Below the pieces are notes generated by a model. The model did no database searches and had not been told where the DNA came from. It saw only the letters and a program-made list of their open reading frames with translations. A stretch of DNA of 64,000 bases, taken from positions 4,030,001-4,094,000 of the forward strand of contig NZ_CP053381.1 of assembly GCF_017868775.1 (NCBI RefSeq), in the 5' to 3' direction. Shown piece after piece: positions 27,214-48,808 of the stretch (its first letter is position 1; each line of letters starts with the position of its first letter). The position numbers and the translations under genes are program-made. Source of the DNA: Billgrantia sulfidoxydans (GTDB lineage Bacteria > Pseudomonadota > Gammaproteobacteria > Pseudomonadales > Halomonadaceae).

Positions 27214-27239
27214 GCGCACTCCGGCGGTTCGGTGTTTCG

Positions 27240-27314
27240 ATACCATGGCAGTCTGCTTGCCCCGGCGCGGCCGAACCAATATCGTTTAGGTCGTCAGCCA
27301 TACCCTGGAGGTAT
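27240..27314. promoter_or_regulatory. Two CatR/BenM-type operator sites
   Basis: ATAC-N7-GTAT, the classical CatM/BenM recognition pattern with a T-N11-A core, is at 27300-27314 and overlaps the catR ribosome-binding sequence, which suggests autorepression. A near copy, ATAC-N7-GTCT, is at 27240-27254, close to the catB start. Their centres are 60 bases apart. Confidence 0.65.
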
Positions 27315-29356: not shown

Positions 29357-29396
29357 GGCTCACCTCCATTGTCCTGGGCGCGGGAAGACGCCGGGC

Positions 29397-30431: not shown

Positions 30432-30532
30432 GTGTCCCTCCTTTTCCGCTGTGTCCCAGGCCCGAGGCGCTGCCAAATGACGTGGCGCCGTGGCGCGCAG
30501 CGCTCACCGGCGGGCATGGGGTGGATGACGAT

Positions 30533-30943: not shown

Positions 30944-31395
30944 GCTGTCTCCCCCTCGCGTGCCTTGATCGCGTAGACGCTCCGGCTGCTGACCGCTAGC
31001 CGCCCCGATACCAGGAAGCGACTCGCCTTGGTGAAGAAGCAGACCTGGCGTCGAGGCTTCCAGCTCACGCCCTCGAGGTGGGATGTGACGCTGACGAGAT
31101 CGCCGCAGCGCAGCGGGCCATGGCAGGTAAAGGCCTGCTCCGCGTGGAGCAGGCGATTGGCATCGACCACCAGCAGCTGCGCCAGTTGGGCGACGATGCC
31201 GGCATCCATCTCCAGCGCAAAGGGCAGGGTCGGCAAGGCCGGCCCGATATCCTCGCAGGCGCCTCGCTCTTCCCCCTCGCCCCGCGTCTCCAGGAAGTCG
31301 AGATAGCGGGCCACCCGCTCGCGCTCGATACGCGCCTGGAAGCGTGGGAATTCGTACCCCTCCAGCGCCAGCCAACGTCGATGAAATCGCAGCAT
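30937..31395 (-). CDS. MaoC-like hydratase, N-terminal non-catalytic half
   Basis: A 152-residue protein resembling the MaoC N-terminal dehydratase domain: a substrate-binding hot-dog fold without the Asp-His motif. The FTCHGPLRCGDLVSVTSHL stretch is typical of this half. Its coupling to the catalytic half by a seven-base overlap supports a two-subunit enzyme, as in actinobacterial steroid side-chain hydratases. It follows the acyl-CoA synthetase gene by 16 bases. Confidence 0.78.
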   Translation of the reverse strand: MLRFHRRWLALEGYEFPRFQARIERERVARYLDFLETRGEGEERGACEDIGPALPTLPFALEMDAGIVAQLAQLLVVDANRLLHAEQAFTCHGPLRCGDLVSVTSHLEGVSWKPRRQVCFFTKASRFLVSGRLAVSSRSVYAIKAREGETAC

Positions 31396-31411
31396 GATTC
31401 ACCCGGCCCGA

Positions 31412-33382: not shown

Positions 33383-33420
33383 GCGCTTGTTCTCCGATAC
33401 ATCCACATTGCTGGCGTGGC

Positions 33421-34404
33421 TTACTTGAAGTTCTTCTTCACCAGCCTCTGTATTTCGCCGACGATGCCGCTGCGGAAGCTCAGCACGCAGAGCACGAAGA
33501 TGGCACCAAGGACCACGCTCACCCAGTTGCCCAGCGGCGACTGCGCCAGCTGGGTCTGCAGACTGACCACCACCCCGGCCCCCACCAGCGGACCGAACAG
33601 GGTGCCCACCCCGCCCAGCAGCGTCATCAGGATCACCTCACCGGACATGTGCCAGTGGGCATCGGTGAGCGACGCGAGCTGGAAGACCAGGGTCTTGGTC
33701 GCACCGGCCAGGCCGGCCAGGCCGGCGGAGAGCACGAAGGCCAGCAGCTTGTAGGCGTCGACGTTGTAGCCCAGCGAGACGGCGCGCGGCTCGTTTTCGC
33801 GGATCGCCTTGAGCACCTGGCCGTAGGGCGAGTGCACAGCGCGCTGGATGATCGCGAAGCCGATCAGGAAGATGGCGAACACGAAGTAGTACATCGCCAG
33901 GTTGCTGCCCAGGCTGACCAGCCCGAACAGCTCGCCGCGCGGCACGCCGTGCAGCCCGTCTTCGCCGCCGGTGAAGGGCGACTGCAGAAAGAGGAAATAG
34001 ACCAGTTGCGACAGCGCCAGGGTGATCATGGCGAAGTAGATACCCTGGCGGCGGATCGCCAGGGCACCGAACAGGGCACCCAGCAGCACGGCGGAGAAGG
34101 TACCGGCCAGGATGCCCAGCTCCGGCGACAGCCCCGGATAGCTGGCCAGCAGGTAGCCGGTGACGTAGCCGCCGGAGGCCAGGAAGGCGGCGTGGCCGAA
34201 GGAGAGTAACCCCGCATAGCCAAGCAGCAGGTTGAAGGCACAGGCGAACAGCGCGAAGCACAGCACCTTCATCAGGAACACGGGATAAATGACGAGGGGC
34301 GCGACAAGGGCGATGGCGATCAGCGCCAGATAGAGGGCGTGGCGTCGCCGTGTGGCACGCCGCTGCAGCTTCATCGCCGGGGACAGGGCGGTGGTGGTGG
34401 ACAT
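33421..34404 (-). CDS. livM: Liv-type ABC transporter permease, LivM
   Basis: A 327-residue inner-membrane permease with about nine to ten hydrophobic segments and LivM features (LLLGYAGLLSFGHAAFLASGG, IRENEPRAVSLGYN). Together with LivH it forms the channel of a branched-chain amino-acid-type (HAAT) importer. The ATG at 34404 has GGAGG seven bases upstream. It is three bases from livH and precedes the acyl-CoA synthetase, pointing to import of an organic acid rather than leucine. Confidence 0.92.
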   Translation of the reverse strand: MSTTTALSPAMKLQRRATRRRHALYLALIAIALVAPLVIYPVFLMKVLCFALFACAFNLLLGYAGLLSFGHAAFLASGGYVTGYLLASYPGLSPELGILAGTFSAVLLGALFGALAIRRQGIYFAMITLALSQLVYFLFLQSPFTGGEDGLHGVPRGELFGLVSLGSNLAMYYFVFAIFLIGFAIIQRAVHSPYGQVLKAIRENEPRAVSLGYNVDAYKLLAFVLSAGLAGLAGATKTLVFQLASLTDAHWHMSGEVILMTLLGGVGTLFGPLVGAGVVVSLQTQLAQSPLGNWVSVVLGAIFVLCVLSFRSGIVGEIQRLVKKNFK

Positions 34405-34406
34405 GC

Positions 34407-35294
34407 TCAAGCCTCCTTGCCGAACAGGCCGGCGGGACGCAGCATCAGCACCAGGATCATCACCAGGAAGATCACGGTGTTGGCCGCCTCGGGATAATAG
34501 ACCTTGGTCAGGCCTTCGATCAGCCCCATGGAGAGCCCGGTGGCCACAGCGCCGAGGATCGAGCCCATGCCGCCGATCACTACCACGGCGAAGACCACGA
34601 TCAGCAGGTTGGCCCCCATGGTCGGGGACACCGGGTAGAGCGGCGCGGCCAGCACCCCGGCGAAGGCGGCCAGCGCCACGCCGAAGCCATAGGTCAGGGT
34701 GATCAGCTGGGGCACATTGACCCCGAAGGCCTGCATCAGCGCCGGGTTCTCGGTGCCGGCACGCAGGTAGGCCCCGAGACGCGTGCGCTCGATGATGTAC
34801 CAGGTGGCCAGGCAGACCACCAGCGCCGCCACCAGCACCCAGCCGCGGTAGGTGGGCAGGAACATGAAGCCCAGGTTCATCCCGCCCTGCAGGGCCGCAG
34901 GCGTCGGGTAGCTCGAGCCCGAGACGCCGAAGAAGTTGATCAGGGTGCCCTCGAAGATCAGCGCCAGGCCGAAGGTGAGCAGCAGCCCGTAGAGGTGGTC
35001 GAGATGGGCAATGCGGCGCAGCAGGACGCGCTCGATCAGCATGCCCACCCCGGCGACCAGCAGGGGGGCGATCAGCAGCGCCGCCCAGTAGTTGAGCCCC
35101 AGGTGCTGCAGCCCCAGCAGGGCGCTAAAGGCGCCCAGCATGTACATGGCACCGTGGGCGAAGTTGACGATCTTCAGCAGGCCGAAGATCACCGCCAGCC
35201 CCAGGCTGAGCAGGGCGTAGAAGGCACCGTTGATAAGGCCCAGCATCAACTGGCCCATGAACACAGCCAACGGCACCCCGAATATCATCGTCAT
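34407..35294 (-). CDS. livH: Liv-type ABC transporter permease, LivH
   Basis: A 295-residue permease with about eight membrane segments and LivH features (LINGAFYALLSLGLAVIFGLL, KIVNFAHGAMYMLGAF, GAYLRAGTENPALMQAFGVN). It follows the binding-protein gene after a hairpin. The ATG at 35294 is used, with GGGAGG upstream; another ATG at 35299 is out of frame. Confidence 0.92.
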   Translation of the reverse strand: MTMIFGVPLAVFMGQLMLGLINGAFYALLSLGLAVIFGLLKIVNFAHGAMYMLGAFSALLGLQHLGLNYWAALLIAPLLVAGVGMLIERVLLRRIAHLDHLYGLLLTFGLALIFEGTLINFFGVSGSSYPTPAALQGGMNLGFMFLPTYRGWVLVAALVVCLATWYIIERTRLGAYLRAGTENPALMQAFGVNVPQLITLTYGFGVALAAFAGVLAAPLYPVSPTMGANLLIVVFAVVVIGGMGSILGAVATGLSMGLIEGLTKVYYPEAANTVIFLVMILVLMLRPAGLFGKEA

Positions 35295-35315
35295 GACATG
35301 GACCTCCCATCAGAG

Positions 35316-35339
35316 TGGCGGCTGCCATGACAGCCGCCA
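35316..35339 (-). other. Hairpin between the binding-protein gene and livH
   Basis: Perfect nine-base arms TGGCGGCTG / CAGCCGCCA with a six-base loop. The position after a binding-protein gene and before a permease gene is where mRNA-stabilising hairpins raise binding-protein levels over membrane subunits. Confidence 0.65.
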
Positions 35340-35352
35340 GTTCCGCATCGGC

Positions 35353-36591
35353 TCAGTTGCTAACCAGGTCGCACCGGCTCTCCTCGAGCGGACGGAAGGC
35401 CTCCTCGGCGGGGATGGTGGCGAGGATCTCGAACAGATCCCACTCACCGGTCGAGTCGGTAGGCGCCTTGACCTGTGCCAGGTACATGTCGTGGACCATG
35501 CGGCCGTCCTCACGCAGGCGACCATTGCGAGAGAAGAAGTCCTCGATGGGGTTCTCCAGCAGATAGGCACGTACCTCGGCCGGGTCATCGCTGCCGGTGG
35601 CCTCGATCGCCTTGAGGTAGTGGGTCACGGCGGAGTAGTCGCCCGCCTGCACCATGGTGGGCATGCGGCCTACCCGCTGCTGGAAGCGCTCGGCCCACTC
35701 ACGGGACTGCTCATCCATGTTCCAGTACCAGCCGGTCACGAACTGGGTGCCCTGGGCGACGTCCAGGCCGATGGACTTCATGTCGGTGATGAAGACCATC
35801 AGGCTCGCCAGGGTCTGTCCGCCCTGGGGAACGCCGAACTGGTAGGCGGTGTTGATGGCATTGACCAGGTCCTTCCCGGCGCTGGCCAGGCCGATGATCT
35901 GGGCGCCGGAGCCCTGGGCCTGCAGCATATAGGAGGAGAAGTCATCGGTCGGGAAGGGGTGGCGAATCTTGCCGGCGATGGTTCCGCCGCTCTCGACCAC
36001 GGCATTCTCGACCGCCGCCTCCATGGCGTGACCGAAGGCGTAGTCCGAGCTCATCAGGAACCAGGACTCGCCGCCCTGCTCCACCATCGCGCGCGCTGCC
36101 GCATCCGAAACGGCGAAGGTGTCATACACCCAGTGGACGTGATTCGGCGTGCAGTGCTCGCCGGTAATGCTGTCCGCCGCCGCGGTAGTGACCATGGCAA
36201 ACTTGTTGCTCTGCTCGACTAGCTTGGAAACCGCGATGGCCACCGAGGAGGCGTTGAGCCCGGTGATCATGTCGACCGAGTCCTGATCCATCCACTCCCG
36301 GGCCAGGTTCGAGGCCACGGCCGGATCGTTGCGATGGTCGGCGCTGATCAGCTCGATCGGCACGCCGTTCACCTCGCCACCGAAGTCCTCGATCGCCATC
36401 TCGATGGCCGTGAGGCCGCCGGGGCCGGCGAGGTCGCTGTAGGTACCGTTCATGTCGTCCATGTAGCCGATGACGATCTTGTCGTCGCTGACGGCCGCCT
36501 GGGCCGCCTGGGCCGCCTGGGCCGCCAGCGGCGCCAGGCTGGCGGCGGCGAGGGCGATGCTCGAGGCAAGGATCTTGCGATTGACGTTCAT
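35353..36591 (-). CDS. Liv-type ABC transporter substrate-binding protein
   Basis: A 412-residue periplasmic protein (Peripla_BP_6 type) with a signal peptide (about residues 1-24, with repeated Ala-Gln-Ala at the cut region). The mature start KIVIGYMDDMNGTYSDLAGP and the DHRNDPAVASNLAREWMDQD stretch are typical. It determines which compound is imported. Members of this branch next to CoA-ligase genes usually bind aromatic or alicyclic acids rather than branched amino acids, which fits the context but is an inference. Confidence 0.9.
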   Translation of the reverse strand: MNVNRKILASSIALAAASLAPLAAQAAQAAQAAVSDDKIVIGYMDDMNGTYSDLAGPGGLTAIEMAIEDFGGEVNGVPIELISADHRNDPAVASNLAREWMDQDSVDMITGLNASSVAIAVSKLVEQSNKFAMVTTAAADSITGEHCTPNHVHWVYDTFAVSDAAARAMVEQGGESWFLMSSDYAFGHAMEAAVENAVVESGGTIAGKIRHPFPTDDFSSYMLQAQGSGAQIIGLASAGKDLVNAINTAYQFGVPQGGQTLASLMVFITDMKSIGLDVAQGTQFVTGWYWNMDEQSREWAERFQQRVGRMPTMVQAGDYSAVTHYLKAIEATGSDDPAEVRAYLLENPIEDFFSRNGRLREDGRMVHDMYLAQVKAPTDSTGEWDLFEILATIPAEEAFRPLEESRCDLVSN

Positions 36592-36653
36592 GGTCTGCTC
36601 CGTGGCCCCCGCGGGGGCGGCTTGTTGTTGTGATACCGAATCAATGACGTGGG

Positions 36654-37412
36654 TCATACCCCCAGCAGGGAGTTGAGGTGCTCGCGCCGCGACGGCAGCT
36701 CGGCGGCACCGATCTCCTCGACGATGCGTCCGTGCTCCATCACGAAGTGACGGTCGGCCAGCGGTGCGGCGAAGCGGAAGTTCTGCTCCACCAGCACGAT
36801 GGTCATGCCGTGCGCCTTGAGCTTGACCAGCACCTCGCCGAGCGCCTGGACGATGACCGGCGCCAGCCCCTCGGTGATCTCGTCGAGCAGCAGCAGCCGT
36901 GCCCCGGTGCGCAGGATGCGCGCCATGGCCAGCATCTGCTGCTCGCCGCCGGAGAGCCGGGTTCCCTGGCTGCGGCGCCGCTCGTAGAGGTTGGGGAACA
37001 TCGCGTAGATCTCGTCGATCGACATGCCCCCGGAGCGCACCGTGGGCGGCAGCAGCAGGTTCTCCTCGACGTCGAGGCTGGCGAAGATCCCGCGCTCCTC
37101 GGGGCAGTAGCCGATACCCAGGCGCGGGATGCGGTGGGGCTTCATGCCCAGGGTCTCGTTGCCGTTGATCGTGATTGAGCCGGTACGTCGGCCGACCATG
37201 TTCATGATCGACTTGAGGGTGGTGCTGCGCCCGGCGCCGTTGCGGCCGAGCAGCGTCACCAGCTCGCCGCGCTTCACGTCGAAGTCGACGCCGTGAAGGA
37301 TGTGCGACTCGCCGTAGAAGGCGTGCAGGTCGCTGACCCGTAGCATCTCGGCGCCGTCGCTGTTCCGGTGCTCAGGCACGCTCATCTCGCGCGCTGCTGC
37401 TGGCTGGTTCAT
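36654..37412 (-). CDS. livF: Liv-type ABC transporter ATPase, LivF, with Arg in Walker A
   Basis: A 252-residue cytoplasmic ATPase. Walker A reads GRNGAGRST at residues 56-64, with Arg62 in place of the invariant Lys (codon at 37229-37227). The ABC signature LSGGEQQ, Walker B LLLLDE and the switch His region follow normally. The start overlaps the livG stop as ATGA. LivG has a normal Walker A, so the heterodimer could still hydrolyse ATP at one site. Confidence 0.9.
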   Translation of the reverse strand: MNQPAAAREMSVPEHRNSDGAEMLRVSDLHAFYGESHILHGVDFDVKRGELVTLLGRNGAGRSTTLKSIMNMVGRRTGSITINGNETLGMKPHRIPRLGIGYCPEERGIFASLDVEENLLLPPTVRSGGMSIDEIYAMFPNLYERRRSQGTRLSGGEQQMLAMARILRTGARLLLLDEITEGLAPVIVQALGEVLVKLKAHGMTIVLVEQNFRFAAPLADRHFVMEHGRIVEEIGAAELPSRREHLNSLLGV

Positions 37413-38176
37413 GCCGTGGCCTCCCCTGTCGCCTCGCTGCCCATGTAGGCCTCGCGCACCTGCGGGTCATGCGCCACTTGCTGATAGCCGCCCTCGGCCA
37501 GCACGGCGCCGCGGGCCAGTACGGTGATGCGGTCGCACAGCCGGCTGACCACGCGGAGGTTGTGCTCCACCATCAGCACGGTGCGCCCCGTCGCGACGCG
37601 CCGGATCAATTCGACGATGCGGTCGACGTCCTCGGCGCCCATGCCCTGGGTCGGCTCGTCGAGCAGCATCAGCGTGGGCTCCAGGGCGAGGGTGGTGGCC
37701 ACCTCCAGCGCGCGCTTGCGCCCGTAGGGCATCTCCACGGTGAGTACATCGGCGTACTCGGCGAGGCCCACCTCGTCGAGGAGCTCCAGAGCGCGGTCGT
37801 TGAGGTGGTCGAGGCTGCTCTCGGGCTTCCAGAAGTGAAAGGAGGTACCCAGCTTGCGCTGCAGGGCCACCCGCACGTTCTCCAGCGCAGTCATGTGGCC
37901 GAACACCGCGGATATCTGGAAGGAGCGCACCAGGCCGAGGCGCGCGATCTCGTTGGCCTTCATGCCGGTGATCGGCTTGCCACGGTAGAGGATCTCGCCG
38001 CGGGTCGGCGGCAGGAATTTGGTCAGCAGGTTGAAGACGGTGGTTTTGCCGGCCCCGTTGGGGCCGATCAGGGCATGGATGTGCCCTTCCTGAACCTGCA
38101 GGTTGACGTCGTCCACGGCGGTGAAGCCGCGGAACTGCTTGGTCAGGTTGCGTGCTTCGAGTATCGCACTGCTCAT
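37409..38176 (-). CDS. livG: Liv-type ABC transporter ATPase, LivG
   Basis: A 255-residue ATPase with Walker A GPNGAGKTT, Walker B LMLLDEP and the LivG insertion (TGMKANEIARLGLVRSFQ). The signature is degenerate (MPYGRKRALEVA), as is common in LivG. It is the first gene of the ten- or eleven-gene minus-strand operon reading down to 28949 or 28279. I start at the ATG at 38176, after AAGGTGG; a longer frame upstream crosses the promoter. Confidence 0.92.
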   Translation of the reverse strand: MSSAILEARNLTKQFRGFTAVDDVNLQVQEGHIHALIGPNGAGKTTVFNLLTKFLPPTRGEILYRGKPITGMKANEIARLGLVRSFQISAVFGHMTALENVRVALQRKLGTSFHFWKPESSLDHLNDRALELLDEVGLAEYADVLTVEMPYGRKRALEVATTLALEPTLMLLDEPTQGMGAEDVDRIVELIRRVATGRTVLMVEHNLRVVSRLCDRITVLARGAVLAEGGYQQVAHDPQVREAYMGSEATGEATA

Positions 38177-38449
38177 CGTGCCACCTTTGTGATTGTCGCT
38201 AGCTCGGCAGGACTGTTCACTGAGTCTAGTTGCGCCGGGATTTATGTCAATATATATACGTATATTATTTTGACAACTCTCGTTCTCATGAGACATGACA
38301 GCACAGAAAACCACATAAACGTCATGCACATGACATATATAGCGGCAGCAACGCATCCACCCCGCTGCGGCCCGGCACGAACAGCTCGCCGACCAGGCCG
38401 CTGGCCGTCGAGCGCGTCTTGCCAGAGCCTTCGGGAAGATCCGGCCTTC
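38177..38449 (-). promoter_or_regulatory. Promoter and AT-rich operator of the Liv-CoA operon
   Basis: This 273-base gap is far more AT-rich than its surroundings around 38240-38275. A -35 TTGACA (38250-38245, minus strand) and -10 TAGACT (38228-38223) are 16 bases apart. Overlapping the -35 is an inverted repeat with TGTCAA (38245-38250) and TTGACA (38270-38275) as arms around ATATACGTATAT, a perfect 12-base palindrome at 38254-38265. This looks like a MarR-type operator; BadR is the candidate. I see no gene in the rest of the gap. Confidence 0.6.
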
Positions 38450-39376
38450 CTACAGCTTGCTCTCCAGCTCCGGCAGGATCTCGAACAGGTCACCGACCAG
38501 GCCGTAATCGGCCACCTGGAAGATCGGCGCCTCCTCGTCCTTGTTGATCGCCACGATCACCTTGGAGTCCTTCATGCCGGCCAGGTGCTGGATCGCCCCG
38601 GAAATGCCCACGGCGATGTAGAGCTCCGGCGCGACGATCTTGCCGGTCTGGCCGACCTGCATGTCGTTGGGCACGAAGCCGGCGTCCACCGCGGCACGCG
38701 AGGCACCGATGGCCGCGCCCAGCTTGTCGGCGATACCCTCGAGCAGCTTGAAGTTCTCGCCGCTGCCCATGCCGCGACCGCCGGAGATGACCACCCGCGC
38801 CCCGCCCAGTTCGGGACGGTCGCTCTGGGCCAGCTCCTGCTTGAGGAAGGTGGACTGGCTATTCTCGGCCACGAACTCGACGCTCTCGACGCTGGCACTG
38901 CCGCCCTCTGCCACCGCATCGAACGCCGTGGTGCGCACGGTGATCACCTTGAGCGCGTCGGCGCTCTTGACCGTGGCAATGGCATTGCCGGCATAGATGG
39001 GGCGCTTGAAGGTGTCGCCATCAACCACTTCGACGATCTCGGAGATCTGGCTGACGTCCTTCAGGGCGGCGACGCGCGGCAGCACGTTCTTGCCGGTGGT
39101 GGAGGCGGCGGCCAGCACGTGGCGGTAGTCGCCGGCGAGCTCGACCAGCAGCGCGCCCAGGGGCTCGGCGAGCTGGTGGGCATAGGCGGCGTGGTCGGCC
39201 ACCCGCACCTTGCTCACGCCGTCGAGCCTGGCGGCGGCCTCGGCCACGGCACCGACGTTCTCGCCGGCCACCAGCACGTCGATGTCGCCGCCAATCGCCT
39301 GGGCCGCCGCGACCACATGGGCGGTGGCGCCGGCGAGCTGGCCGTCGTGATGTTCTGCAAGTACCAGGATGCTCAT
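38450..39376 (-). CDS. etfA: Electron transfer flavoprotein alpha subunit
   Basis: A 308-residue FAD-binding subunit with the C-terminal FAD domain signature ([31 protein letters not shown]). It receives electrons from the acyl-CoA dehydrogenases encoded just upstream and passes them to ETF:quinone oxidoreductase. I start at ATG 39376 ([10 protein letters not shown]), as usual for EtfA. It is last in its operon, 15 bases from etfB. Confidence 0.95.
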
Positions 39377-39390
39377 GAAATCGGCTCCCC

Positions 39391-40140
39391 TCAAAGCACT
39401 TTGGCTTCGTTCTTGAGTTTGTCCACGAGCTCGTCGACGGAGCCCACCTTGATGCCGCCCTTGCGCTCGGCCGGTGACTCGACCTTCTCCAGCGTCAGCC
39501 GGCTTGTCACCTCGACGCCGAGGTCCGCCGGCGACTTGACGTCGAGCGGCTTCTTCTTGGCCTTCATGATGTCGGGCAGCTTGGCGTAGCGCGGCTCGTT
39601 GAGGCGCAGGTCGGTGGTGATCACCGCCGGCAGGGTCAGCTCGACGGTCTGCAGGCCGCCGTCGACCTCACGCGTGACCTGGACCTTGTCGTTCTCGACC
39701 TTCACTTCCGAGGCGAAGGTGCCCTGGGGCAGGCCGGCCAGGGCGGCAAGCATCTGCCCGGTCTGGTTGTTGTCGGTGTCGATGGCCTGCTTGCCGAGAA
39801 TGACGAGACCGGGCTGCTCCTCTTCCACCACCTTGGCCAGCAGCTTGGCCGCGGCCAGCGACTCGACGCGCTCTTCGGTCTCGACATGCACGGCGCGGTC
39901 GGCACCCAGCGCCAGCGCGGTGCGCAGCTGCTCCTGGGCGGCCTTGGGGCCGACGGTCACGGCGACCACCTCGGTGGCGACCCCTCGCTCCTTCAGCCGC
40001 ACCGCCTCTTCCACGGCGATCTCGCAGAAGGGGTTCATGGCCATCTTGACGTTGGTGAGGTCGACGTCGGAGTGATCCGGCTTGACGCGGATCTTGACGT
40101 TGTAGTCGATGACGCGTTTGACCGCGACGAGGATCTTCAT
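39391..40140 (-). CDS. etfB: Electron transfer flavoprotein beta subunit
   Basis: A 249-residue AMP-binding partner of Etf[21 protein letters not shown] at the start and [21 protein letters not shown] are family hallmarks. Its location directly after two acyl-CoA dehydrogenase genes indicates an Etf dedicated to this pathway, although it may serve general beta-oxidation as well. Confidence 0.95.
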
Positions 40141-40186
40141 AGCAAATTCTCTCTTGTCCTTGGATGGGCAGGGCTGCGGCGACGCC

Positions 40187-41329
40187 TCAGTTGGCCTCGA
40201 GAAGGTCGGCATAGACCCTGAGGTGGCGGTCGTCATCGCCGAAGCGGTGGCCGAGCATCACCAGATGGCGGGCATGATGGGCGAGGCTGTACTCCCAGGT
40301 CATGCCGATACCGCCGTGAAGCTGCACCGCCTGCTCGGCGATGAACTGGGCCGCGCGCTTGACCACGTGCTGGGCGGCGACCAGTTGACGGCTGCGCTCG
40401 GCGCTTGCCGGTTCGTCGGCCACGCAGGCGGCGAGGATCGCCATCGAGGTGGCCAGCTCCAGCTCGGTGGTCATGTCCACCATGCGGTGCTGGAGCACCT
40501 GGAAGCGGCCAATGGGCTGGCCGAACTGCCGGCGGGTCTTGAGGTACTCGAGGGTCAGCTCGCAGGCCTGCTGCATGCTGCCCACCGCCTCTGCGCACTG
40601 GGCCGCCATGGCGCGCCCCAGTTGATGGTCCAGCGCCTCGAAGGCCGCTCCGGCGCAGCCCAGCAGGGCGTCGTCGGCCAGGGTCACGCCAACGAGGACG
40701 AGATCGCAGGCCCAAGGGCCCGCCATGGTCGGATAGGCGCGGCGCTGGACGCCCTCCGCGGCCGGGTCGACCCGGAACAGCGAAAGGCCGTTGCGCTCGC
40801 CGGGTTCGCCCGCCGTGCGCGCCACCACCAGTATCTCGTCGGCGGCCTGGCCGCCGAACACCACCGACTTGCGGCCCGACAACTGCCAGCCGTCGCCGAT
40901 GCGCTCGGCGCGGGTCTCGCTCCACTCGGGCCGATAGTGGGTGCGCGGCTCCTCGCTGGCCACCGCCAGCAGCAGCTCGCCGGCCGCCAGGACCGGGAGC
41001 AGCGCCTCGCGCTGGGCTTCGCTGCCCAGCGCCTGGACCAGGCCGCCGCCGAGGATCTGCGACTCGAGGAAGGGCTCCAGGCAGAGCCCGCGCCCCAACT
41101 CCTGCATCACCACCAGGTTTTCTACCCCGCCGCCGCCCATGCCGCCATGGGCCTCATCGATGGGCATCGCCAGCACGCCAAGCTCAGCCAGCTGGGTCCG
41201 GAAGGTCTCGCTGAAACCCGGCGCGCGGCGCTGCACCCGGTCGCGTTGCTCGAAGCCATAGTGCTCCCTGATCAGCCGGGCCAGCATGTCCTGCAGCATC
41301 TGTTGCTCGTCACTCAGTGCAAAGTCCAT
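40187..41329 (-). CDS. pimD: Acyl-CoA dehydrogenase, PimD-like (pimeloyl-CoA dehydrogenase small subunit)
   Basis: A 380-residue flavoprotein. The opening [29 protein letters not shown] and [21 protein letters not shown] segments resemble the small subunit of pimeloyl-CoA dehydrogenase of Rhodopseudomonas. It pairs with the downstream-coded partner type at 41339, as pimC and pimD do. It should introduce the first double bond in pimeloyl-CoA or another dicarboxyl-CoA. AGGAGG precedes the ATG. The general name acyl-CoA dehydrogenase is certain; the substrate is inferred. Confidence 0.85.
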
Positions 41330-41338
41330 GGCGGCCTC

Positions 41339-42535
41339 CTATAAGCCCAGTTGGGCCTTCGCCAGGATGTTCTTCTGGATCTCGTTGGAGCCGCCGTAGA
41401 TCGATAGCTTGCGCAGGTTCAGGTACTGGGCGGCCGGAGTCACGCTGTAGTCGGCGTGCAGTGGCTCGCCCTCATGCTCGAGCACCATCTCGTCGGCCAG
41501 GAACGGCAGGGCGTGGGGCCCCAGCACCCGTCGGGCCAGATCGCTGATCGCCTGGCGTATCTCGGAGCCGGTGATCTTGAGGATCGAGCTCTCCGTCCCC
41601 GGCGTCCCGCCGGCCTGGGCGCGGGCAAGGATACGCAGGGTGCTCATCTCCACCGCCATCAGTCGCATCTCCACTTCGGCGATGCGTTGGCGCAGCAAGG
41701 GATCTTCCAGCGCCGGGCGGCCGTCGATCACCTCGTGGCGGGCGATGGCCTTGAGATGGGCCAGCGCCGCCTTGGAGATGCCGACCCCGGCCTGCCCGGT
41801 GCGCTCGTGGGTCAACAGGTACTTGGCGCAGGTCCAGCCGTCGTTCTCCTCGCCTACCCGGTTCTCCAACGGCACCCGCACGTCGTCGAAGAACACCTCG
41901 TTGACCTCGTGGGCACCGTCCAGGGTGATGATCGGTCGCACCGAGATCCCCGGGGAGTCCATGTCGATGAGCAGAAAGGAGATGCCCGCCTGTGGCTTGG
42001 CCTCGGGATCGGTGCGCACCAGGCAGAAGATGCGGTTGGCGTACTGGCCCAGGGTGGTCCAGGTCTTCTGGCCGTTGACGACGTAGTGGTTGCCGTCACG
42101 CACCGCGCGGGTCTTCACCGAGGCCAGATCGGAGCCGGCGCCCGGCTCGGAGTAGCCCTGGCACCACCAGTCGCTGCCGTCGAGGATGCGCGGAAGGTAG
42201 TGGGCCTGCTGCTCGGGCGTGCCGAACCTGATGATCACCGGCGCCACCATGTTGACGCCGAAGGAGATCAGCCGCGGCGCCCCCGCCGCCGCACACTCCT
42301 CCTCGAAGAGATGCTTCTCCACCACGCCCCAACCGGTGCCGCCGTGCTCCAGCGGCCAGTTGGCGGCGTACCAGCCGCGGCGGTGGAGGATCGCCTGCCA
42401 GCGCTGATGGTCCTGCTTGGTGAGCTTCTTGCCCAGCCGTACCTTGGCGGCAATGTCGGCAGGCAGCTCGGCCTTCAGGAAAGCCCTGACCTCCTCGCGG
42501 AAGGCCAGCTCCTGCTCGGTGAAGTGGATGTTCAT
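41339..42535 (-). CDS. pimC: Acyl-CoA dehydrogenase, PimC-like (pimeloyl-CoA dehydrogenase large subunit)
   Basis: A 398-residue acyl-CoA dehydrogenase with family motifs WWCQGYSEPGAGSDLAS, NGQKTWTTLGQYA and the C-terminal SIYGGSNEIQKNIL. The pattern, including LTKQDHQRWQAILHRRGW near the N-terminus, is that of PimC. It probably forms a heteromer with the 380-residue partner encoded nine bases downstream. The start at 42535 overlaps the hydratase stop as ATGA. Confidence 0.86.
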   Translation of the reverse strand: MNIHFTEQELAFREEVRAFLKAELPADIAAKVRLGKKLTKQDHQRWQAILHRRGWYAANWPLEHGGTGWGVVEKHLFEEECAAAGAPRLISFGVNMVAPVIIRFGTPEQQAHYLPRILDGSDWWCQGYSEPGAGSDLASVKTRAVRDGNHYVVNGQKTWTTLGQYANRIFCLVRTDPEAKPQAGISFLLIDMDSPGISVRPIITLDGAHEVNEVFFDDVRVPLENRVGEENDGWTCAKYLLTHERTGQAGVGISKAALAHLKAIARHEVIDGRPALEDPLLRQRIAEVEMRLMAVEMSTLRILARAQAGGTPGTESSILKITGSEIRQAISDLARRVLGPHALPFLADEMVLEHEGEPLHADYSVTPAAQYLNLRKLSIYGGSNEIQKNILAKAQLGL

Positions 42536-43425
42536 GCGGTGATCCCTCTTGTGGCGTCTCTGGCGCCTGCCGCGAACGAGCGGCTGTCGCGGCCGCGCGC
42601 CAGGAAGGCCTCGACCTTGGCCTGACGCTGGGGCGAGGCCAGGCACTCCAGGAAGAGTTCGCGCTCGCGGGCAAGCGCCGCGGTGAAGGGGCGGCTCACG
42701 GCCGCCTCCAGGGCCTCGACGGCCTTGAGGGGGGCCAGGTCGCCCGAGGCCGGCAGCGCTACCCCCTTGCGCTGAGCAGCCAGCCACGCGAGCGGCGCCT
42801 CGCTAGCAGCGACGAGTTCACGCTCCCGCGTCGGCCGCACGCCCCGACGGGCCAGCTCCGCGCCCATGGCGACCCGCACCTCCTCCGAGGCATGGCCTCG
42901 CTCGATGATCCCATCCACCAGTCCCCGTTCCCGGGCCTGGCCGGCACCGACGGGCTCGCCGGAGAGAATCATCACGAGTGCGGACTCCAGGCCGATGAGC
43001 CGCGGCAGGCGCTGGGTGCCACCGGCGCCGGGAATCAACCCCAGCTTGACCTCGGGCAGGCCGAAGCGCGCCTCCGGGGCGGCGAGGCGGTAATGGCAGG
43101 CCATGGCCAACTCCAGCCCGCCGCCCAGGGAGACGCCGTGGAGCCAGGCCACCACGGGCTTGGGCGAGCTCTCGATGGCATCGATCACCTCGGGCAGCAG
43201 CGGTGCCCGGGACACCTTGCCGAACTCCTTGATGTCGGCGCCGGCGGAGAAGCAGCGACCCCCGGATTGCAGCAGGATCCACGTCACCCGCGGGTCGTCG
43301 AGCGCCTTGGCCAGGGCCTTCAGTAGGCCCGACCGAACGGACTGGCCCAGGGCGTTCACCGGCGGACTGAACAGGGTAATCAGGCCGCAGCGACCGTTGC
43401 GGGTCAGAGTGACGGGGTGACTCAT
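42532..43425 (-). CDS. Enoyl-CoA hydratase, resembling the front part of a FadJ/PimF-type protein
   Basis: A 297-residue crotonase. The oxyanion and acid-base residues are present: [18 protein letters not shown] and [20 protein letters not shown] carry the two catalytic Glu. The C-terminal third ([33 protein letters not shown]) is the linker that, in FadJ/PimF multifunctional enzymes, leads into the 3-hydroxyacyl-CoA dehydrogenase domain. That domain is absent. It could hydrate the enoyl product of PimCD, or serve as the otherwise missing cyclohex-1-ene-1-carboxyl-CoA hydratase (BadK role). It is first in the pim-etf operon. Confidence 0.83.
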
Positions 43426-43674
43426 GGCGGGCTCCTCCCGTGTCGTCGTGCTCGGCCAACCGGTGACTGCAGGCAGGCCTCATGTCAACTGGATGTCATA
43501 ATTCCCGGCCGAATTCGGCCCTCTCTGGGATCGAGTCTAGACACGCTTCGGAAAAAAGACAATGTGTTGACATAAATTATATCGTAGCCTAGCTTTCAAC
43601 CCAGGCACACGAAGATGCCGGCACCACGGCAACATACGAGCCATGACAAAGAACAAACATGTTCAGGAGCTTAT
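43426..43674. promoter_or_regulatory. Divergent promoter region between the pim-etf and ali-bad operons
   Basis: Back-to-back sigma70-like promoters are visible. Minus strand: -35 TTGTCT (43562-43557) and -10 TAGACT (43539-43534), spacing 17. Plus strand: TTGACA (43567-43572) and TAGCTT (43590-43595), spacing 17. A perfect 14-base palindrome, GGCCGAATTCGGCC, at 43507-43520 lies just downstream of the minus promoter. ATAA-A-TTAT lies in the plus spacer. TTGACAT also recurs on the minus strand near 43484. BadR is the likely regulator. Confidence 0.6.
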
Positions 43675-45327
43675 ATGACAATCCAGACCAACCTGACGCC
43701 CGAGCGCAGAGTCGCCATGGTCGAGCTGGGGGCATGGAACGACAAGATCATTACAGATTATCTCGATGAGGCGGTGGCCTCGGCCGGGCAGCGGACCGCC
43801 ATCGTCACCTACCGGATGGCCGACGGCAGCCGTACCGAACTGAGCTACAAGGAACTGAACGACAAGGTCACCCGCATCGCGGCAGGGCTGGCGGGGCTCG
43901 GCGTGGCAAAGGGCGACATCGTCTCCTGCCAGCTGCCCAACTGGTGGCAGATGACCACCCTGCACTTGGCCTGCGTGCGCATCGGCGCCGTGCTCAACCC
44001 GCTGATGCCGATCTTCCGCGAGCACGAGCTGGCGTACATGCTCGGCATGGCCGAGAGCAAGGTGCTGGTGGTGCCCCAGACCTTCCGCAAGTTCGATCAC
44101 GCCGCCATGGCCCATGAACTCAAGGGCACACTGCCCAAGCTGGACCATTTGCTGGTGATCGACGGCCAGGGCGAGGAAAGCTTCGAGCGGCGACTGCTGG
44201 AGCGCGCCTGGGAAACGGAGATCGACACCGAAACCCTGTTCCGCGAACGCCGCCCGTCGGGCGACGACGTCGTCCAGGTGCTCTACACCTCGGGCACCAC
44301 CGGCAAGCCGAAGGGCGTGATGCACACCTCCAATACCCTGTTCAGTAATATCCGGCCCTTCGCCGAGCGCCTGGACCTGGGCGAGACGGACACCGTCTTC
44401 ATGCCCTCCCCGCTGGCTCATCAGCTGGGCTTTCTCTACGGCCTGATGCTGCCGGTCTATCTCAAGACCGCGGTGGTCCTGCAGGATACCTGGCTGCCCG
44501 AGGCGTCGACCGGCATCCTGCGCGCCGAGCAACCCCGGCTGATGCTCGGTTCCACGCCCTTCCTGGCCGATATCGCCGACCAGGCCAGCACCCACGGCCC
44601 CGACCTGCAGTCGCTCAAGCTCTTCCTGTGCGCCGGCGCACCGATTCCGAGCCCGCTGGTGGAGAAGGCAGCCAGGAACCTGCCGACCCGCATCCTCTCG
44701 GCCTGGGGCATGACCGAGAACGGCGCGGTGACCACCACCCTGCCCGAGGACGCCCCCTCGCGGGCCGTTCATACCGATGGCGTTCCGTTGCCTTACGTCG
44801 AGCTCAAGGTCACCGACATGGAGGGCAACCCCCTGCCCGCCGGCGAGGAGGGCCCCCTCCACATGCGCGGCGCCAGCCTGTTCGTCGGCTACTTCAAGCA
44901 GCCCGAACTCTACGGCGTGGACGACGCGGGCTGGTTCCCCACCGGCGACCTGGCGCGCCTCGACGCGCAGGGCTACGTGCGCATCACCGGCCGCTCCAAG
45001 GACGTGGTGATCCGCGGCGGCGAGAACATTCCCATCGTCGATATCGAGAACACTCTCTACCAGCACCCCAAGGTCCAGGCCCTGGCCCTGGTCGGCAAGC
45101 CCGACGAGCGCCTCGGCGAACGGCTGTGTGCCTACGTCACCCTCAAGGAGGGCGAGACGTCGCTGACCCTCGAGGAGGCCTGCGCCTTCCTCTCCGAGCG
45201 CAAGGTGACCCGCCAGTACCACCCCGAGTTCCTGGTAGTGCTCGACGAACTGCCGCGCACCCCCTCCGGCAAGATCCAGAAGTTCAAGCTGCGTGAGCAA
45301 GCCAGGCAGGAGTCCCTGGACCGCTGA
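43675..45327 (+). CDS. aliA: Cyclohexanecarboxylate-CoA ligase (AliA-like)
   Basis: A 550-residue adenylate-forming ligase activating an alicyclic acid to its CoA ester. AMP motif YTSGTTGKPKGVMHT starts at residue 204; WFPTGDLARLD, GRSKDVVIRGGENIP and the catalytic Lys in TPSGKIQKFK follow. Its neighbours are badH, badI and aliB homologues, the set around aliA in Rhodopseudomonas palustris, which supports cyclohexanecarboxylate as substrate. I start at the ATG at 43675, with AGGAG eight bases upstream; an earlier in-frame ATG at 43615 lies closer to the promoter and lacks a site. Confidence 0.87.
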   Translation: MTIQTNLTPERRVAMVELGAWNDKIITDYLDEAVASAGQRTAIVTYRMADGSRTELSYKELNDKVTRIAAGLAGLGVAKGDIVSCQLPNWWQMTTLHLACVRIGAVLNPLMPIFREHELAYMLGMAESKVLVVPQTFRKFDHAAMAHELKGTLPKLDHLLVIDGQGEESFERRLLERAWETEIDTETLFRERRPSGDDVVQVLYTSGTTGKPKGVMHTSNTLFSNIRPFAERLDLGETDTVFMPSPLAHQLGFLYGLMLPVYLKTAVVLQDTWLPEASTGILRAEQPRLMLGSTPFLADIADQASTHGPDLQSLKLFLCAGAPIPSPLVEKAARNLPTRILSAWGMTENGAVTTTLPEDAPSRAVHTDGVPLPYVELKVTDMEGNPLPAGEEGPLHMRGASLFVGYFKQPELYGVDDAGWFPTGDLARLDAQGYVRITGRSKDVVIRGGENIPIVDIENTLYQHPKVQALALVGKPDERLGERLCAYVTLKEGETSLTLEEACAFLSERKVTRQYHPEFLVVLDELPRTPSGKIQKFKLREQARQESLDR

Positions 45328-45383
45328 GGCAGCCCTCGGCACGCGACGCGAACTCATCACACCCAGCAGATTGGAGACCGACC

Positions 45384-46151
45384 ATGAAAGGATTGAAGGA
45401 CAAAACCGTTATCGTGACCGGCGGCGGTGGCGGCATCGGCAAGGCCGTGTGCGCACGCTTCGCCGAGCATGGCGCCAAGGTGGCGGTGCTCGACCGCGAC
45501 GAGGCGGCGGCCCGGGCTACCGTCGACGTGATCACGGAGGCCGGCGGTGAGGCACGCGCCTATGGCGCCGATATCACCGACTACGCGGCCATCGTCACCA
45601 CCGTGGCGCGCATCGAGCAGGATTTCGGCACCCCCACCGTGCTGGTCAATAACGCTGGCTTCGACCGCTTCATGCCGTTCCTCAAGACCGAACCGGCGCT
45701 GTGGGAGTCGCTGATCGCGGTCAACCTCACCGGTGCACTCAACATGCACCACGTGGTGCTGCCCAAGATGATCGAAGCCGGCGGCGGCAAGGTGATCAAC
45801 ATCGCCTCCGACGCCGCCCGGGTCGGCTCCTCCGGCGAGGCCGTCTACGCCGCCTGCAAGGCCGGCCTGCTGGGACTGAGCAAGACACTGGCCCGCGAAC
45901 TCGCCACCAAGGGCATCACCCTCAACGTGGTCTGCCCCGGCCCTACCGACACCGCGCTGCTGCAGGGCTTCGCCGAGACCTCCCGCGATCCCGACAAGCT
46001 GCTCGAGGCGTTCCGCAATGCCGTACCCATGCGCCGCATCGGCCAGCCCGAGGACTATCCCGGCATCATCACCCTGCTCGCCAGCGACGAAGCCAGTTTC
46101 ATCACCGGTCAAGTAATCAGTGTTTCCGGCGGCCTGACCATGGCCGGCTAG
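45384..46151 (+). CDS. badH: 2-hydroxycyclohexanecarboxyl-CoA dehydrogenase (BadH-like)
   Basis: A 255-residue SDR oxidising 2-hydroxycyclohexane-1-carboxyl-CoA to the 2-keto ester with NAD. TGGGGGIG (residues 12-19), Ser142, Tyr155 and Lys159 form the cofactor and active sites. From memory of the R. palustris protein, whole stretches agree (NIASDAARVGSSGEAVYAAC, VVCPGPTDTALL, GFITGQVLSVSGGLTM with small changes). It lies 56 bases after aliA and 95 before badI. Confidence 0.92.
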   Translation: MKGLKDKTVIVTGGGGGIGKAVCARFAEHGAKVAVLDRDEAAARATVDVITEAGGEARAYGADITDYAAIVTTVARIEQDFGTPTVLVNNAGFDRFMPFLKTEPALWESLIAVNLTGALNMHHVVLPKMIEAGGGKVINIASDAARVGSSGEAVYAACKAGLLGLSKTLARELATKGITLNVVCPGPTDTALLQGFAETSRDPDKLLEAFRNAVPMRRIGQPEDYPGIITLLASDEASFITGQVISVSGGLTMAG

Positions 46152-46246
46152 CAAATGCTGGTTCACGGCGGCGCTCGCGACATGACGCAGCCGCTTCCCA
46201 CGTCTTGACGAACGCTTTACCTACCTCGAATTCCAGGAGCTCAGCG

Positions 46247-47044
46247 ATGAACCATTCAGCGACCAGCTATGAAGACATCCTCTACGACGTCACCGACGGG
46301 GTGGCCACCATCACCATCAACCGCCCGGAGCGCTACAACGCCTTTCGCGGCCAGACCTGCATGGAGCTGCTCGACGCCTTCAACCGCGCCGGCTGGGACA
46401 AGTCGATCGGCGTGATCGTGCTGACGGGCGCCGGCGACAAGGCGTTCTGCACCGGCGGCGACCAGGGCGCCCACGAGGGTCAATACGACGGTCGCGGCAT
46501 CATCGGCCTGCCGGTGGAAGAGCTGCAGACCCTGATCCGCCAGGTGCCCAAGCCGGTCATCGCCCGGGTCAACGGTTTCGCCATCGGCGGCGGCCACGTG
46601 CTGCACGTGGTGTGCGACCTCTCCATCGCCTCCGAGACCGCCATCTTCGGCCAGGTGGGCCCCAAGGTGGGCTCCGTGGACCCGGGCTTCGGCACCGCCT
46701 ACCTCAGCCGCGTGATCGGCGAGAAGCGCGCCCGCGAGATCTGGTACCTGTGCCGCAAGTACAGCGCCGCCCAGGCGCTGGAGTGGGGCCTGGTCAACGC
46801 CGTGGTGCCGCCCGAGCAGCTCGACGAGGAGGTGCGCCAGTGGTGCGACGAGATCCTCGAGAAGAGCCCCACGGCGCTCTCCATCGCCAAGCGTTCGTTC
46901 AATGCCGACAGCGAGAACATCGCCGGCATCGGCGCATTGGGCATGCAGGCGCTGAGCCTCTACTACGAGACCGAGGAGTCGAAGGAGGGGGTCTCCGCCT
47001 TCAAGGAGAAGCGCAAGCCTCAGTTCCGCAAATACTACCAGTGA
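46247..47044 (+). CDS. badI: 2-ketocyclohexanecarboxyl-CoA hydrolase (BadI-like), ring opening
   Basis: A 265-residue crotonase-family hydrolase opening the ring of 2-ketocyclohexane-1-carboxyl-CoA to pimeloyl-CoA. Distinctive segments are AFCTGGDQGAHEGQYDGRG (residues 67-85), IFGQVGPKVGSVDPGFGTA and the C-terminal EKRKPQFRKY, which match BadI and differ from ordinary hydratases or DHNA synthase MenB. AGGAG precedes the ATG at 46247. A strong hairpin follows the gene. Confidence 0.93.
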   Translation: MNHSATSYEDILYDVTDGVATITINRPERYNAFRGQTCMELLDAFNRAGWDKSIGVIVLTGAGDKAFCTGGDQGAHEGQYDGRGIIGLPVEELQTLIRQVPKPVIARVNGFAIGGGHVLHVVCDLSIASETAIFGQVGPKVGSVDPGFGTAYLSRVIGEKRAREIWYLCRKYSAAQALEWGLVNAVVPPEQLDEEVRQWCDEILEKSPTALSIAKRSFNADSENIAGIGALGMQALSLYYETEESKEGVSAFKEKRKPQFRKYYQ

Positions 47045-47059
47045 CGCCACTGTGGCCAC

Positions 47060-47094
47060 GGGGGACCGTCGCTCCTGTGGAGCGACGGTCCCCC
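47060..47094 (+). other. Perfect 16-base hairpin between badI and aliB
   Basis: Arms GGGGGACCGTCGCTCC and GGAGCGACGGTCCCCC enclose a TGT loop, 24 bases before aliB. No T-run follows. It may stabilise the upstream mRNA, or be a REP-like palindromic element. Confidence 0.65.
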
Positions 47095-47117
47095 GGCGAG
47101 GATGGAGAACGCATGTC

Positions 47118-48257
47118 ATGAACTTTGCCTTTACCGAACAACAGGATGCCATCCGCGAGAGTGTGGCACGGCTGGCCGCCGAGGTGCTGGCACCGCGCTA
47201 CCGTGCCCGCGAGCAGGAGGCACGCATCGAGCGCGAGATCGTCGAGATGCTCGGCGAGGTGGGCTGCTTGGGCGGCGAGCTACCCGAGGAATACGGCGGC
47301 AGCGGCCTGGATTGCGTGACCAGCGGCATCATCGTCGAGGAAATAGCCCGCGGCGATTTCAATGTCGGCTACCTGCCGCTGCTGGCCTCGCTCAACGGTC
47401 AGATCATCGCCCGCTACGCCCGCCCCGAGCTGGCGCGGGAGTGGCTCTCCGGCATCACCTCCGGCAAGAAGATCTGCTGCATCGCCCTGACCGAGCCCCA
47501 CGGCGGATCCGACGCCGCCAACCTCAAGCTCAAGGCCAACCGCGACGGCGAGCGCTTCCTGCTCAACGGCGAGAAGACATCGATCTCCATGGCCGACCAG
47601 GCCGACGTGGCGGTGGTGTTCGCTCGCACCGGCACCCAGGAGCAGCGCGCCTCCGGCATCAGCGCCTTCCTGGTGCCGATGGACTTGCCCGGCATCTCCA
47701 CCAGTCGTTTCGAGGATTCCGGGCAGCGCGCCATTGGCCGCGGCTCGATTTTCTTCGACAATGTCGCGGTACCGGCCGATCACATGCTCGGCGACGAGGG
47801 CCAGGGCTTCAAGCAGGTGATGCAGGGCTTCGACTACAGCCGCGCACTGATCGGCCTGCAGTGCCTGGCGGTGGCGCAGCAGTCGCTGGACGAAACTTGG
47901 CAGTGGCTCACCGAACGCGAGGCCTTTGGCCACAAGCTTTCCGCCTTCCAGGGCCTGACCCATCCGCTGGCGGAGTACCAGACCTACGTTCAGGCCGCCC
48001 GCCTGCAGTGCTACTACGCACTGTGGCTGAAGGACAACGAACTGCCCCACACCAGCGAGGCGGCGATGAACAAGTGGTGGGGGCCGAAGCTTGCCTTCGA
48101 CGTGATCAAGCAGTGCATGCTGGCCCACGGCCACACCGGCTGGGGCGAGGACATGCCGTTTTCTCAGCGCATGCGCGACGTGCTGGGGCTGCAGATCGGC
48201 GACGGTACCGCGCAGATCATGAAAAACATCATCGCCCGCCAGGCGGTGCCCAGATGA
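47118..48257 (+). CDS. aliB: Cyclohexanecarboxyl-CoA dehydrogenase (AliB-like) with Asp as catalytic base
   Basis: A 379-residue flavin acyl-CoA dehydrogenase, forming cyclohex-1-ene-1-carboxyl-CoA. FAD/substrate motifs are ALTEPHGGSDAAN and NGEKTSIS. At the position of the catalytic Glu of medium-chain enzymes (EGT), Asp362 appears in IGDGTAQI (codon 48201-48203). Alicyclic acyl-CoA dehydrogenases are reported to use Asp here, which supports the assignment. The start at 47118 gives the usual N-terminus MNFAFTEQQDAIRES. Electrons probably go to EtfAB encoded nearby. Confidence 0.88.
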   Translation: MNFAFTEQQDAIRESVARLAAEVLAPRYRAREQEARIEREIVEMLGEVGCLGGELPEEYGGSGLDCVTSGIIVEEIARGDFNVGYLPLLASLNGQIIARYARPELAREWLSGITSGKKICCIALTEPHGGSDAANLKLKANRDGERFLLNGEKTSISMADQADVAVVFARTGTQEQRASGISAFLVPMDLPGISTSRFEDSGQRAIGRGSIFFDNVAVPADHMLGDEGQGFKQVMQGFDYSRALIGLQCLAVAQQSLDETWQWLTEREAFGHKLSAFQGLTHPLAEYQTYVQAARLQCYYALWLKDNELPHTSEAAMNKWWGPKLAFDVIKQCMLAHGHTGWGEDMPFSQRMRDVLGLQIGDGTAQIMKNIIARQAVPR

Positions 48258-48325
48258 CCCACCTCATCGCGACCGGATGCCCTGATTCCCGCCTGGCGGC
48301 GCTGCTCGACAAAGGAGTGCCATCG

Positions 48326-48808
48326 ATGGCGATTCAGGACGACAAGAGCGTGGCCAACCGGCTGTTCTTCCGTCTCTTCCAGGCCAGCAACATCCTGCAG
48401 AAGCAGACGGTAAGCGCCGTGGGGCTGACCACGGTGCAGTGGGCCGTGCTGGGGGCGCTCTCCCGTCGCGGCTATGAACAAGGCATCGCCTTTAATGATC
48501 TGATCGAGTACCTGATCGTCAGCCGCCAGAACCTCGACGGCGTGCTCAAGCGGCTGGAGCGGGAGGGTCACGTTAAGCGGACTCCCCACCCCGACGACGG
48601 TCGCGCCCGCCTGATCCTGCTCACCGAGCAGGGTCGCGCCTACTGGGAGAGCCTGCAGCCGAAGATTCACGAGTTCTACGCCCAAGGGCTTTCCCACCTC
48701 ACCTTCGACGAGACGGTGAGCCTGCTGCACTACCTCAACAAGTTTCAGAAAGACCTGCAGGCCATCGCCATGCAGGAGACACCCACCGCCGAGCGCGAAG
48801 AGAGCTGA
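48326..48808 (+). CDS. badR: MarR-family regulator, BadR-like
   Basis: A 160-residue winged-helix repressor: helices around TTVQWAVLGALSRRGY, recognition region IEYLIVSRQNLDGVLKRLEREG, wing HPDDGRARLILLTEQG. In R. palustris BadR represses the ali-bad genes and is released by 2-ketocyclohexane-1-carboxyl-CoA. Its position as the gene after aliB supports the same role here. AAAGGAG precedes the ATG at 48326. Candidate operators lie at 43507-43595 and 38245-38275. Confidence 0.85.
   Translation: MAIQDDKSVANRLFFRLFQASNILQKQTVSAVGLTTVQWAVLGALSRRGYEQGIAFNDLIEYLIVSRQNLDGVLKRLEREGHVKRTPHPDDGRARLILLTEQGRAYWESLQPKIHEFYAQGLSHLTFDETVSLLHYLNKFQKDLQAIAMQETPTAEREES

Follow-up and report, generated by a model that had tools for sequence, protein, structure and literature searches.

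A probable bad-ali gene cluster for cyclohexanecarboxylate and related acids in Billgrantia sulfidoxydans

Introduction

Genes for the breakdown of alicyclic acids lie in a stretch of the Billgrantia sulfidoxydans genome that also carries an oxygenase route for benzoate, which raises the question of whether they form a route for cyclohexanecarboxylate (CHC) and how complete and how unusual such a route is in this host. The stretch, called the window below, is 64,000 bases long and corresponds to bases 4030001-4094000 of a genome made of one contig of 4,491,948 bases; the host belongs to the Halomonas/Billgrantia group. At positions 38450-48808 of the window, aliA-badH-badI-aliB-badR on the forward strand stand divergent from genes for a crotonase (here ech297), pimC-like and pimD-like proteins, etfB and etfA on the reverse strand, with a 250-bp gap between the two groups. 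A first-pass annotation had named these genes from the sequence, and all of the open frames are present where it placed them, including the MarR-type frame and those for the electron transfer flavoprotein (ETF) alpha and beta subunits. The locus is read here, with a probability of about 0.86, as a bad-ali cluster for CHC and its kin.

Identity of the pathway

For each of the six scored pathway proteins (AliA, BadH, BadI, AliB and the PimC/PimD-like pair), the named family is the top NCBIfam family by a wide margin. BadI was put to the test against MenB because it belongs to the MenB superfamily. It scores 462.0 bits with TIGR03210, and the two best MenB models reach 367.9 and 324.0, so that the MenB identity was rejected. 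When BadI was aligned against 201 Halomonadaceae genomes, 32 matched at E 1e-60 or better with a bimodal distribution, 14 of these, the host among them, at 1e-162 to 1e-165, the remaining 18 with best matches at 5e-98 to 4e-104. Among the best 80 of 587 relatives, the BadI of Halomonas cerina shows 94% identity to the window protein and that of a Halomonas metagenome-assembled genome (MAG) 93%; identity to a Billgrantia aerodenitrificans protein is 89%.

The locus sample leans to near relatives because only these best 80 were kept. Gene order was compared in loci L030-L048 and L130-L142, that is 32 loci of which 31 are distinct, since L130, from a genome placed in the host's genus (G092), falls whole within the H. 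cerina locus L030; absences in the compared loci hold for the fetched flank. The order aliA-badH-badI-aliB-badR is kept in all of them, across Halomonadaceae, Marinobacter, Pseudomonas and Azotobacter, with transporter genes sitting before badR in L037, L038 and L044. An order that recurs in all compared loci is not due to chance.

The published BadR operator is of the CAAN4TTG type (PMC9795900, cited here and below from excerpts of its text). A site of this pattern lies in the divergent gap, 115 bp upstream of aliA. The sample for this feature comprised 33 loci (the window, L030-L048 and L130-L142), of which L032 and L131 have no usable upstream stretch; a site was found within 250 bp upstream of aliA in 31/31 usable loci against 3.1 expected from first-order Markov shuffles, the nearest one being 86 to 139 bp upstream. 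As L030 and L130 come from a single record and the loci are related to one another, this count stands for conservation and not for independent events. Over the whole window, 7 sites were found against 5.6 expected, so the count alone is uninformative and only position and conservation carry weight.

AliB was also examined at the position of its catalytic base. Asp is found there in 52/52 AliB relatives at >=55% identity (at least 55%), whereas 27 dehydrogenases below 40% identity have Glu in 21 cases, Gly in three and Ala in one, with two unaligned at this position; the count leaves out rows between 40 and 55% identity. We take the Asp base to be a mark of CHC-coenzyme A (CoA) dehydrogenases, for which a literature search found no confirming paper.

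From these genes, the substrate and the fluxes can be proposed as follows. AliA would convert CHC to CHC-CoA, and AliB, working with either the local EtfAB or a different ETF, would turn it into cyclohexene-carboxyl-CoA, which a crotonase would hydrate; BadH would oxidise the alcohol and BadI would open the ring to give pimeloyl-CoA. A heteromeric PimCD with EtfAB would start the beta-oxidation of pimeloyl-CoA, ech297 would hydrate dehydropimeloyl-CoA, and an unlinked 3-hydroxyacyl-CoA dehydrogenase and thiolase (best candidates at 2.2175-2.2202 Mb) would lead to glutaryl-CoA and acetyl-CoA. BadR, presumably bound at 43560, would repress both divergent groups as long as CHC-CoA is lacking.

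Several points weigh against this assignment. AliB alone passes its NCBIfam cut-off and the other 5/6 scored proteins fall below theirs, BadI by 5.6 bits, BadH by 63 and AliA by 61 (the pair is given in Table 1), a curated cut-off being a naming rule and not a biochemical trait. BadK is missing from the window, as the first-pass annotation had noticed, and the genome-wide look-up that it proposed returned no orthologue either: 0/13 PF00378 crotonases of the host fall in the BadK clade described below, the best reaching 46%. One step of the pathway is therefore left without an assigned enzyme. Finally, growth of the host on CHC and expression of the cluster are predictions from the genes.

The shortfalls of AliA and BadH would also fit a cluster that serves another ring acid, substituted naphthenic or terpene-derived, in place of CHC itself, and badKHI sets have been suggested for monoterpenes in two Aromatoleum strains (PMC9795900). 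However, those terpene sets are described in the same excerpts as being without aliAB and badR, while aliA, aliB and badR are present here with an operator of the published type in the gap, and a substrate of this kind is very unlikely.

Relation to known systems

The CHC cluster of Aromatoleum sp. CIB resembles the window in its aliA, aliB, badH, badI and MarR-type badR genes, its divergent groups, its CAAN4TTG-type operator and a linked pimeloyl-CoA dehydrogenase gene, and it works with oxygen as well as with nitrate (PMC9795900). The window differs in that aliA is grouped with badH, badI, aliB and badR, that badK is absent, that the pimCD pair has its own etfAB, and that hydratase, dehydrogenase and thiolase do not form one aab set. 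The Pseudomonas/Azotobacter loci L040, L041, L043 and L046 have etfA-etfB-pimD-pimC-ech, in the order of the window, divergent from aliA-badH-badI-aliB-badR, but with badK between ech and aliA. The Figure 6 legend in PMC9795900 lists both genera.

Rhodopseudomonas palustris, also described in PMC9795900, shares with the window a PimCD-type dehydrogenase and the enzymes that lead from CHC to pimeloyl-CoA. Unlike the window, it has one operon with badR divergent and badK present, and the genes are shared with a benzoate breakdown based on benzoyl-CoA reductase. In favour of the reading as a CHC cluster, the function of the bad-ali gene set, badK included, has been proven experimentally (PMC9795900).

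The ring hydration step

The step left by the absence of BadK has two candidate enzymes. A further crotonase adjoins aliA in the divergent group of 14/19 loci L030-L048. Seven of these 14 were entered in the crotonase tree, and they fall with crotonases of three alpha- and one beta-proteobacterial bad-ali loci in a clade of 11 rows (100/100), for which the name BadK rests on the place beside bad-ali genes and not on a comparison with the R. palustris protein. The tree took in the crotonases of 12 of the 80 loci, five from congeners and all 13 host rows; it carries a long-branch warning for the host rows, and two L049 crotonases stand outside the BadK clade. A close BadK was found in one of the 14 badI-bearing Halomonadaceae (G002, 76%), the other 13 reaching 44-49% at best, and the G002 BadK shares 75% identity with proteins named from one Halomonas and one Modicisalibacter; the family as a whole is therefore not devoid of BadK.

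The first candidate is ech297 itself, which might serve both ring and open-chain substrates and so have replaced BadK. Residues 14-277 of its 297 can be aligned with the hydratase half of 6ium (FadB-type), and it lacks a dehydrogenase domain; both crotonase-type Glu residues, which belong to the active-site motifs of this family, are kept. Its clade (13 rows, 99/98) takes in proteins of L071 and L086, encoded beside bad-ali genes, with both ECH_1 and 3HCDH domains, and this architecture of hydratase plus 3-hydroxyacyl-CoA dehydrogenase is that of PimF; the members from L041, L042 and L133 have the hydratase domain only. A role of ech297 in the pathway is favoured by the congeners L133, L134, L137 and L140, where a crotonase of its group (100/99) is divergent from aliA in a fetched flank without pimCD or badK, and its use in place of BadK by the 13/14 badI-bearing Halomonadaceae with no crotonase above 49% to the cluster BadK. 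Nevertheless, in H. cerina (L030:3899-4327, one draft assembly) an in-frame internal deletion removes the catalytic part of the ech297 counterpart while aliA, badH, badI, aliB, badR and pimCD are kept, which speaks against ech297 being required. No gene of this type was found in the fetched flank of L132, L136, L138, L139 and L141, and in the Pseudomonas/Azotobacter loci the ech297-type crotonase stands beside badK and would thus have an older role elsewhere in the pathway. Ring hydration by ech297 is a tentative proposal that we hold as somewhat doubtful.

The second candidate is an unlinked short-chain crotonase, the best one being encoded at 1294860-1295603, and this has a nearly even chance of being correct. 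It alone in the genome matches the cluster BadK with an E-value of 1e-40 or lower, at 46% identity, it adjoins a 3-hydroxybutyryl-CoA dehydrogenase gene, and where badK is absent from a cluster a badK-like gene is mostly found elsewhere, according to the excerpts of PMC9795900. On the other hand, it falls outside the BadK clade and is core to the genus, being present in 59/61 genomes (the two without it are 85 and 72% complete). It is therefore a housekeeping gene, and nothing ties it to CHC.

DNA similarity to the congeners ends at window position 42932, inside ech297. An origin of this gene as a two-gene recombinant was rejected: the same fall in protein identity beyond residue 165 also shows against the other relatives compared, alpha-proteobacterial ones included, and is ordinary faster change of the C-terminal part. 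In the protein comparison, the L137 row is uninformative for residues 231-297.

Benzoate, benzoyl-CoA reductase and the oxygen setting

Benzoate would be handled by an oxygenase, as the first-pass annotation had stated: benABC, catA and catC lie in the window at 21705-26079, four of the five proteins passing their cut-offs and BenA scoring 745.2 bits below a cut-off of 780.95, with a muconate-cycloisomerase-type gene directly after them at 26095-27279. Its remark that benzoyl-CoA reductase genes are not seen also stands at the scale of the genome, where the search for the class I type (PF01869) gave nothing over cut-off and one sub-threshold match, and that for the class II type (PF01314, AFOR) gave no match. 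Models of the reductase B and C subunits were not run on the host, and the PF01869/PF01314 searches support neither type. In related genomes, TIGR02260 (benzoyl-CoA reductase B) matched in 0/50 badI-bearing genomes, with no over-cut-off positive among 14 controls; these genomes represent 50 of the 80 loci, and some are MAGs of unknown completeness. A bad-ali cluster without this reductase subunit is thus the rule among these relatives.

The same result bears on the claim that the setting is unusual for the pathway, which is not upheld. In Aromatoleum sp. CIB, a badHI mutant does not grow on CHC under oxic or nitrate conditions, so that aerobic use is documented (PMC9795900, Sanz and Diaz 2022). 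According to the excerpts of that paper, bad-ali clusters are widespread, some without badK, and are also found in strains incapable of breaking down aromatics anaerobically; earlier proposals on this setting concerned Cupriavidus gilardii and, as cited there, Rhodococcus. An anaerobe-type pathway in an aerobic setting was thus already published in 2022, and the find is largely ordinary because many oxygen-breathing bacteria were already known to carry sets of this kind. The present analysis adds the operator in the divergent gap, the AliB Asp, the absence of BadK, the distant thiolase and dehydrogenase candidates and a 13.6-kb block described below. The Halomonas/Billgrantia group is in this way documented as carriers of a nearly complete probable route for cyclohexane-type naphthenic acids, with the missing ring hydratase narrowed to two named candidates. 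No Halomonas paper on CHC was among the matches listed in the literature search.

The annotation had further proposed that the pathway is used aerobically for alicyclic acids. The fit to alicyclic acids is upheld, but "aerobic" is not established: the pathway chemistry is free of O2 and a full-length NarG (2332 bits) is present in the host, so that nitrate could also serve as acceptor. The electron acceptor would then be oxygen or nitrate.

As for the neighbourhood of the two sets, ben or cat genes were found in the fetched flank of 5/13 other Halomonadaceae loci (L133, L134, L137, L141 and L142), together with one catB-like match at 68% in that of L139, and in none of the flanks of L030-L048. 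By its title, a 1978 paper reported that CHC undergoes beta-oxidation and that benzoate use is induced at the same time. It is conceivable, and in our view unlikely, that in this genus a PimF without its dehydrogenase half has become the ring hydratase of a bad-ali pathway lacking BadK, acting on cyclohexene and open-chain C7 substrates, and that bad-ali and ben-cat form one alicyclic-plus-aromatic island; if true, this would account for the old report of benzoate use induced with CHC use.

The lower pathway

The thiolase was said to be absent locally, which was borne out: none lies in the interval, and the nearest thiolase-family match is weak and about 5 kb past the window end. The search elsewhere that had been suggested gave candidates for thiolase and 3-hydroxyacyl-CoA dehydrogenase at 2.2175-2.2202 Mb, 1.85 Mb away. 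They are a 3-oxoadipyl-CoA thiolase (NF006001, 651.2 bits, cut-off 622; TIGR02430, 554.3, below 597) and an adjoining two-domain 3-hydroxyacyl-CoA dehydrogenase (NF006124, 689.7 bits, cut-off 508; TIGR02279, 412.7, below 669.4), both of which may act on C7 substrates. A second PimF-type crotonase lies about 5 kb from this pair at 2.225-2.2265 Mb (L110:17080-18507); its protein has kept the hydratase half along with a stretch at the C-terminus, and the hydratase domain is the only one that Pfam finds in it. FadB, encoded at 3.0265 Mb, could serve as a back-up.

Upstream of these steps, a PimCD-like pair matters for growth on a C12 dicarboxylic acid in a beta-proteobacterium, as excerpted from PMC12543098. 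The pimD-like protein of the window does not have the C-terminal motif of the Glu-Gly-Thr type. A further acyl-CoA dehydrogenase of H. cerina (L030:331-1512) shows about 89-91% identity to those of five Marinobacter/Pseudomonas loci, whose neighbouring pimD products are only about 59-61% identical to that of the window, and 90% to that of a further locus, L034. This type is absent from the window cluster, with a relative in the host of 71% at 2063493. Glutaryl-CoA dehydrogenase, considered as its identity, is not supported, no listed model being over cut-off.

Organization of the locus and the left block

The features of the cluster and of the adjoining transporter are collected in Table 1.

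Table 1. Features of the bad-ali locus and the neighbouring transporter genes (window positions; scores in bits)
Feature	Position	Strand	Basis and remarks
livM, livH, livK, livF, livG, branched-chain-type ABC transporter	33421..38356	-	Pfam
etfA, ETF alpha	38450..39394	-	PF01012, PF00766; start may lie a few codons later
etfB, ETF beta	39391..40140	-	PF01012; start by profile
pimD-like, acyl-CoA dehydrogenase small subunit	40187..41329	-	TIGR03203 325.6, cut-off 652.7
pimC-like, acyl-CoA dehydrogenase large subunit	41339..42535	-	TIGR03204 463.5, cut-off 623.85; start by profile
ech297, crotonase, PimF/FadB hydratase half without 3-hydroxyacyl-CoA dehydrogenase half	42532..43425	-	ECH domains only
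Predicted BadR operator, CAAN4TTG type	43560..43569	.	Pattern and conservation upstream of aliA
aliA, CHC-CoA ligase	43675..45327	+	TIGR03208 731.0, cut-off 792.3
badH, 2-hydroxycyclohexanecarboxyl-CoA dehydrogenase	45384..46151	+	TIGR03206 367.8, cut-off 431.2
badI, 2-ketocyclohexanecarboxyl-CoA hydrolase	46247..47044	+	TIGR03210 462.0, cut-off 467.6
aliB, cyclohexanecarboxyl-CoA dehydrogenase	47118..48257	+	TIGR03207 601.1, cut-off 575.35; Asp at base position
badR, MarR-type regulator	48254..48808	+	PF12802; collinear in 13/13 Halomonadaceae loci L130-L142

The cluster probably extends further left to the liv-type genes, because like genes adjoin bad-ali in L038 and L044 (Marinobacter) and in L048 (Pseudomonas), all three of which hold the full set. 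In L038 and L044 the liv genes stand with a zinc dehydrogenase gene between aliB and badR, and in L048 with an acyl-CoA synthetase gene after badR. The transporter possibly takes up the alicyclic acid. A livK-type binding protein, 57-60% identical to that of the window, was found after badR in 9/13 Halomonadaceae loci (L132, L134 and L136-L142) where relatives of the other liv genes were not recognised alongside; the livK of the window belongs to a full set.

Compared with L133, L134, L137 and L140, the window has an extra block of 13.6 kb (about 28.89 to 42.53 kb), flanked by a methyltransferase-type gene and by ech297. It holds epimerase-like, zinc dehydrogenase, MaoC-like and acyl-CoA synthetase genes, the liv transporter, etfAB and pimDC. 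The block is absent at the same place in these four congeners, the rest of whose genomes was not searched; L134, L137 and L140 have the livK relative after badR. The pimDC part is also found in H. cerina, with 87% identity at the DNA level, and G+C content is flat across the block. Its absence at this place in the four congeners, and the presence of parts of it near bad-ali in Marinobacter and Pseudomonas, give the block the look of a movable pathway extension. The genes at 28949-33406, which lie between ben-cat and the transporter, are a methylmalonyl-CoA epimerase-like gene and those for a zinc dehydrogenase, a MaoC-like protein and an acyl-CoA synthetase.

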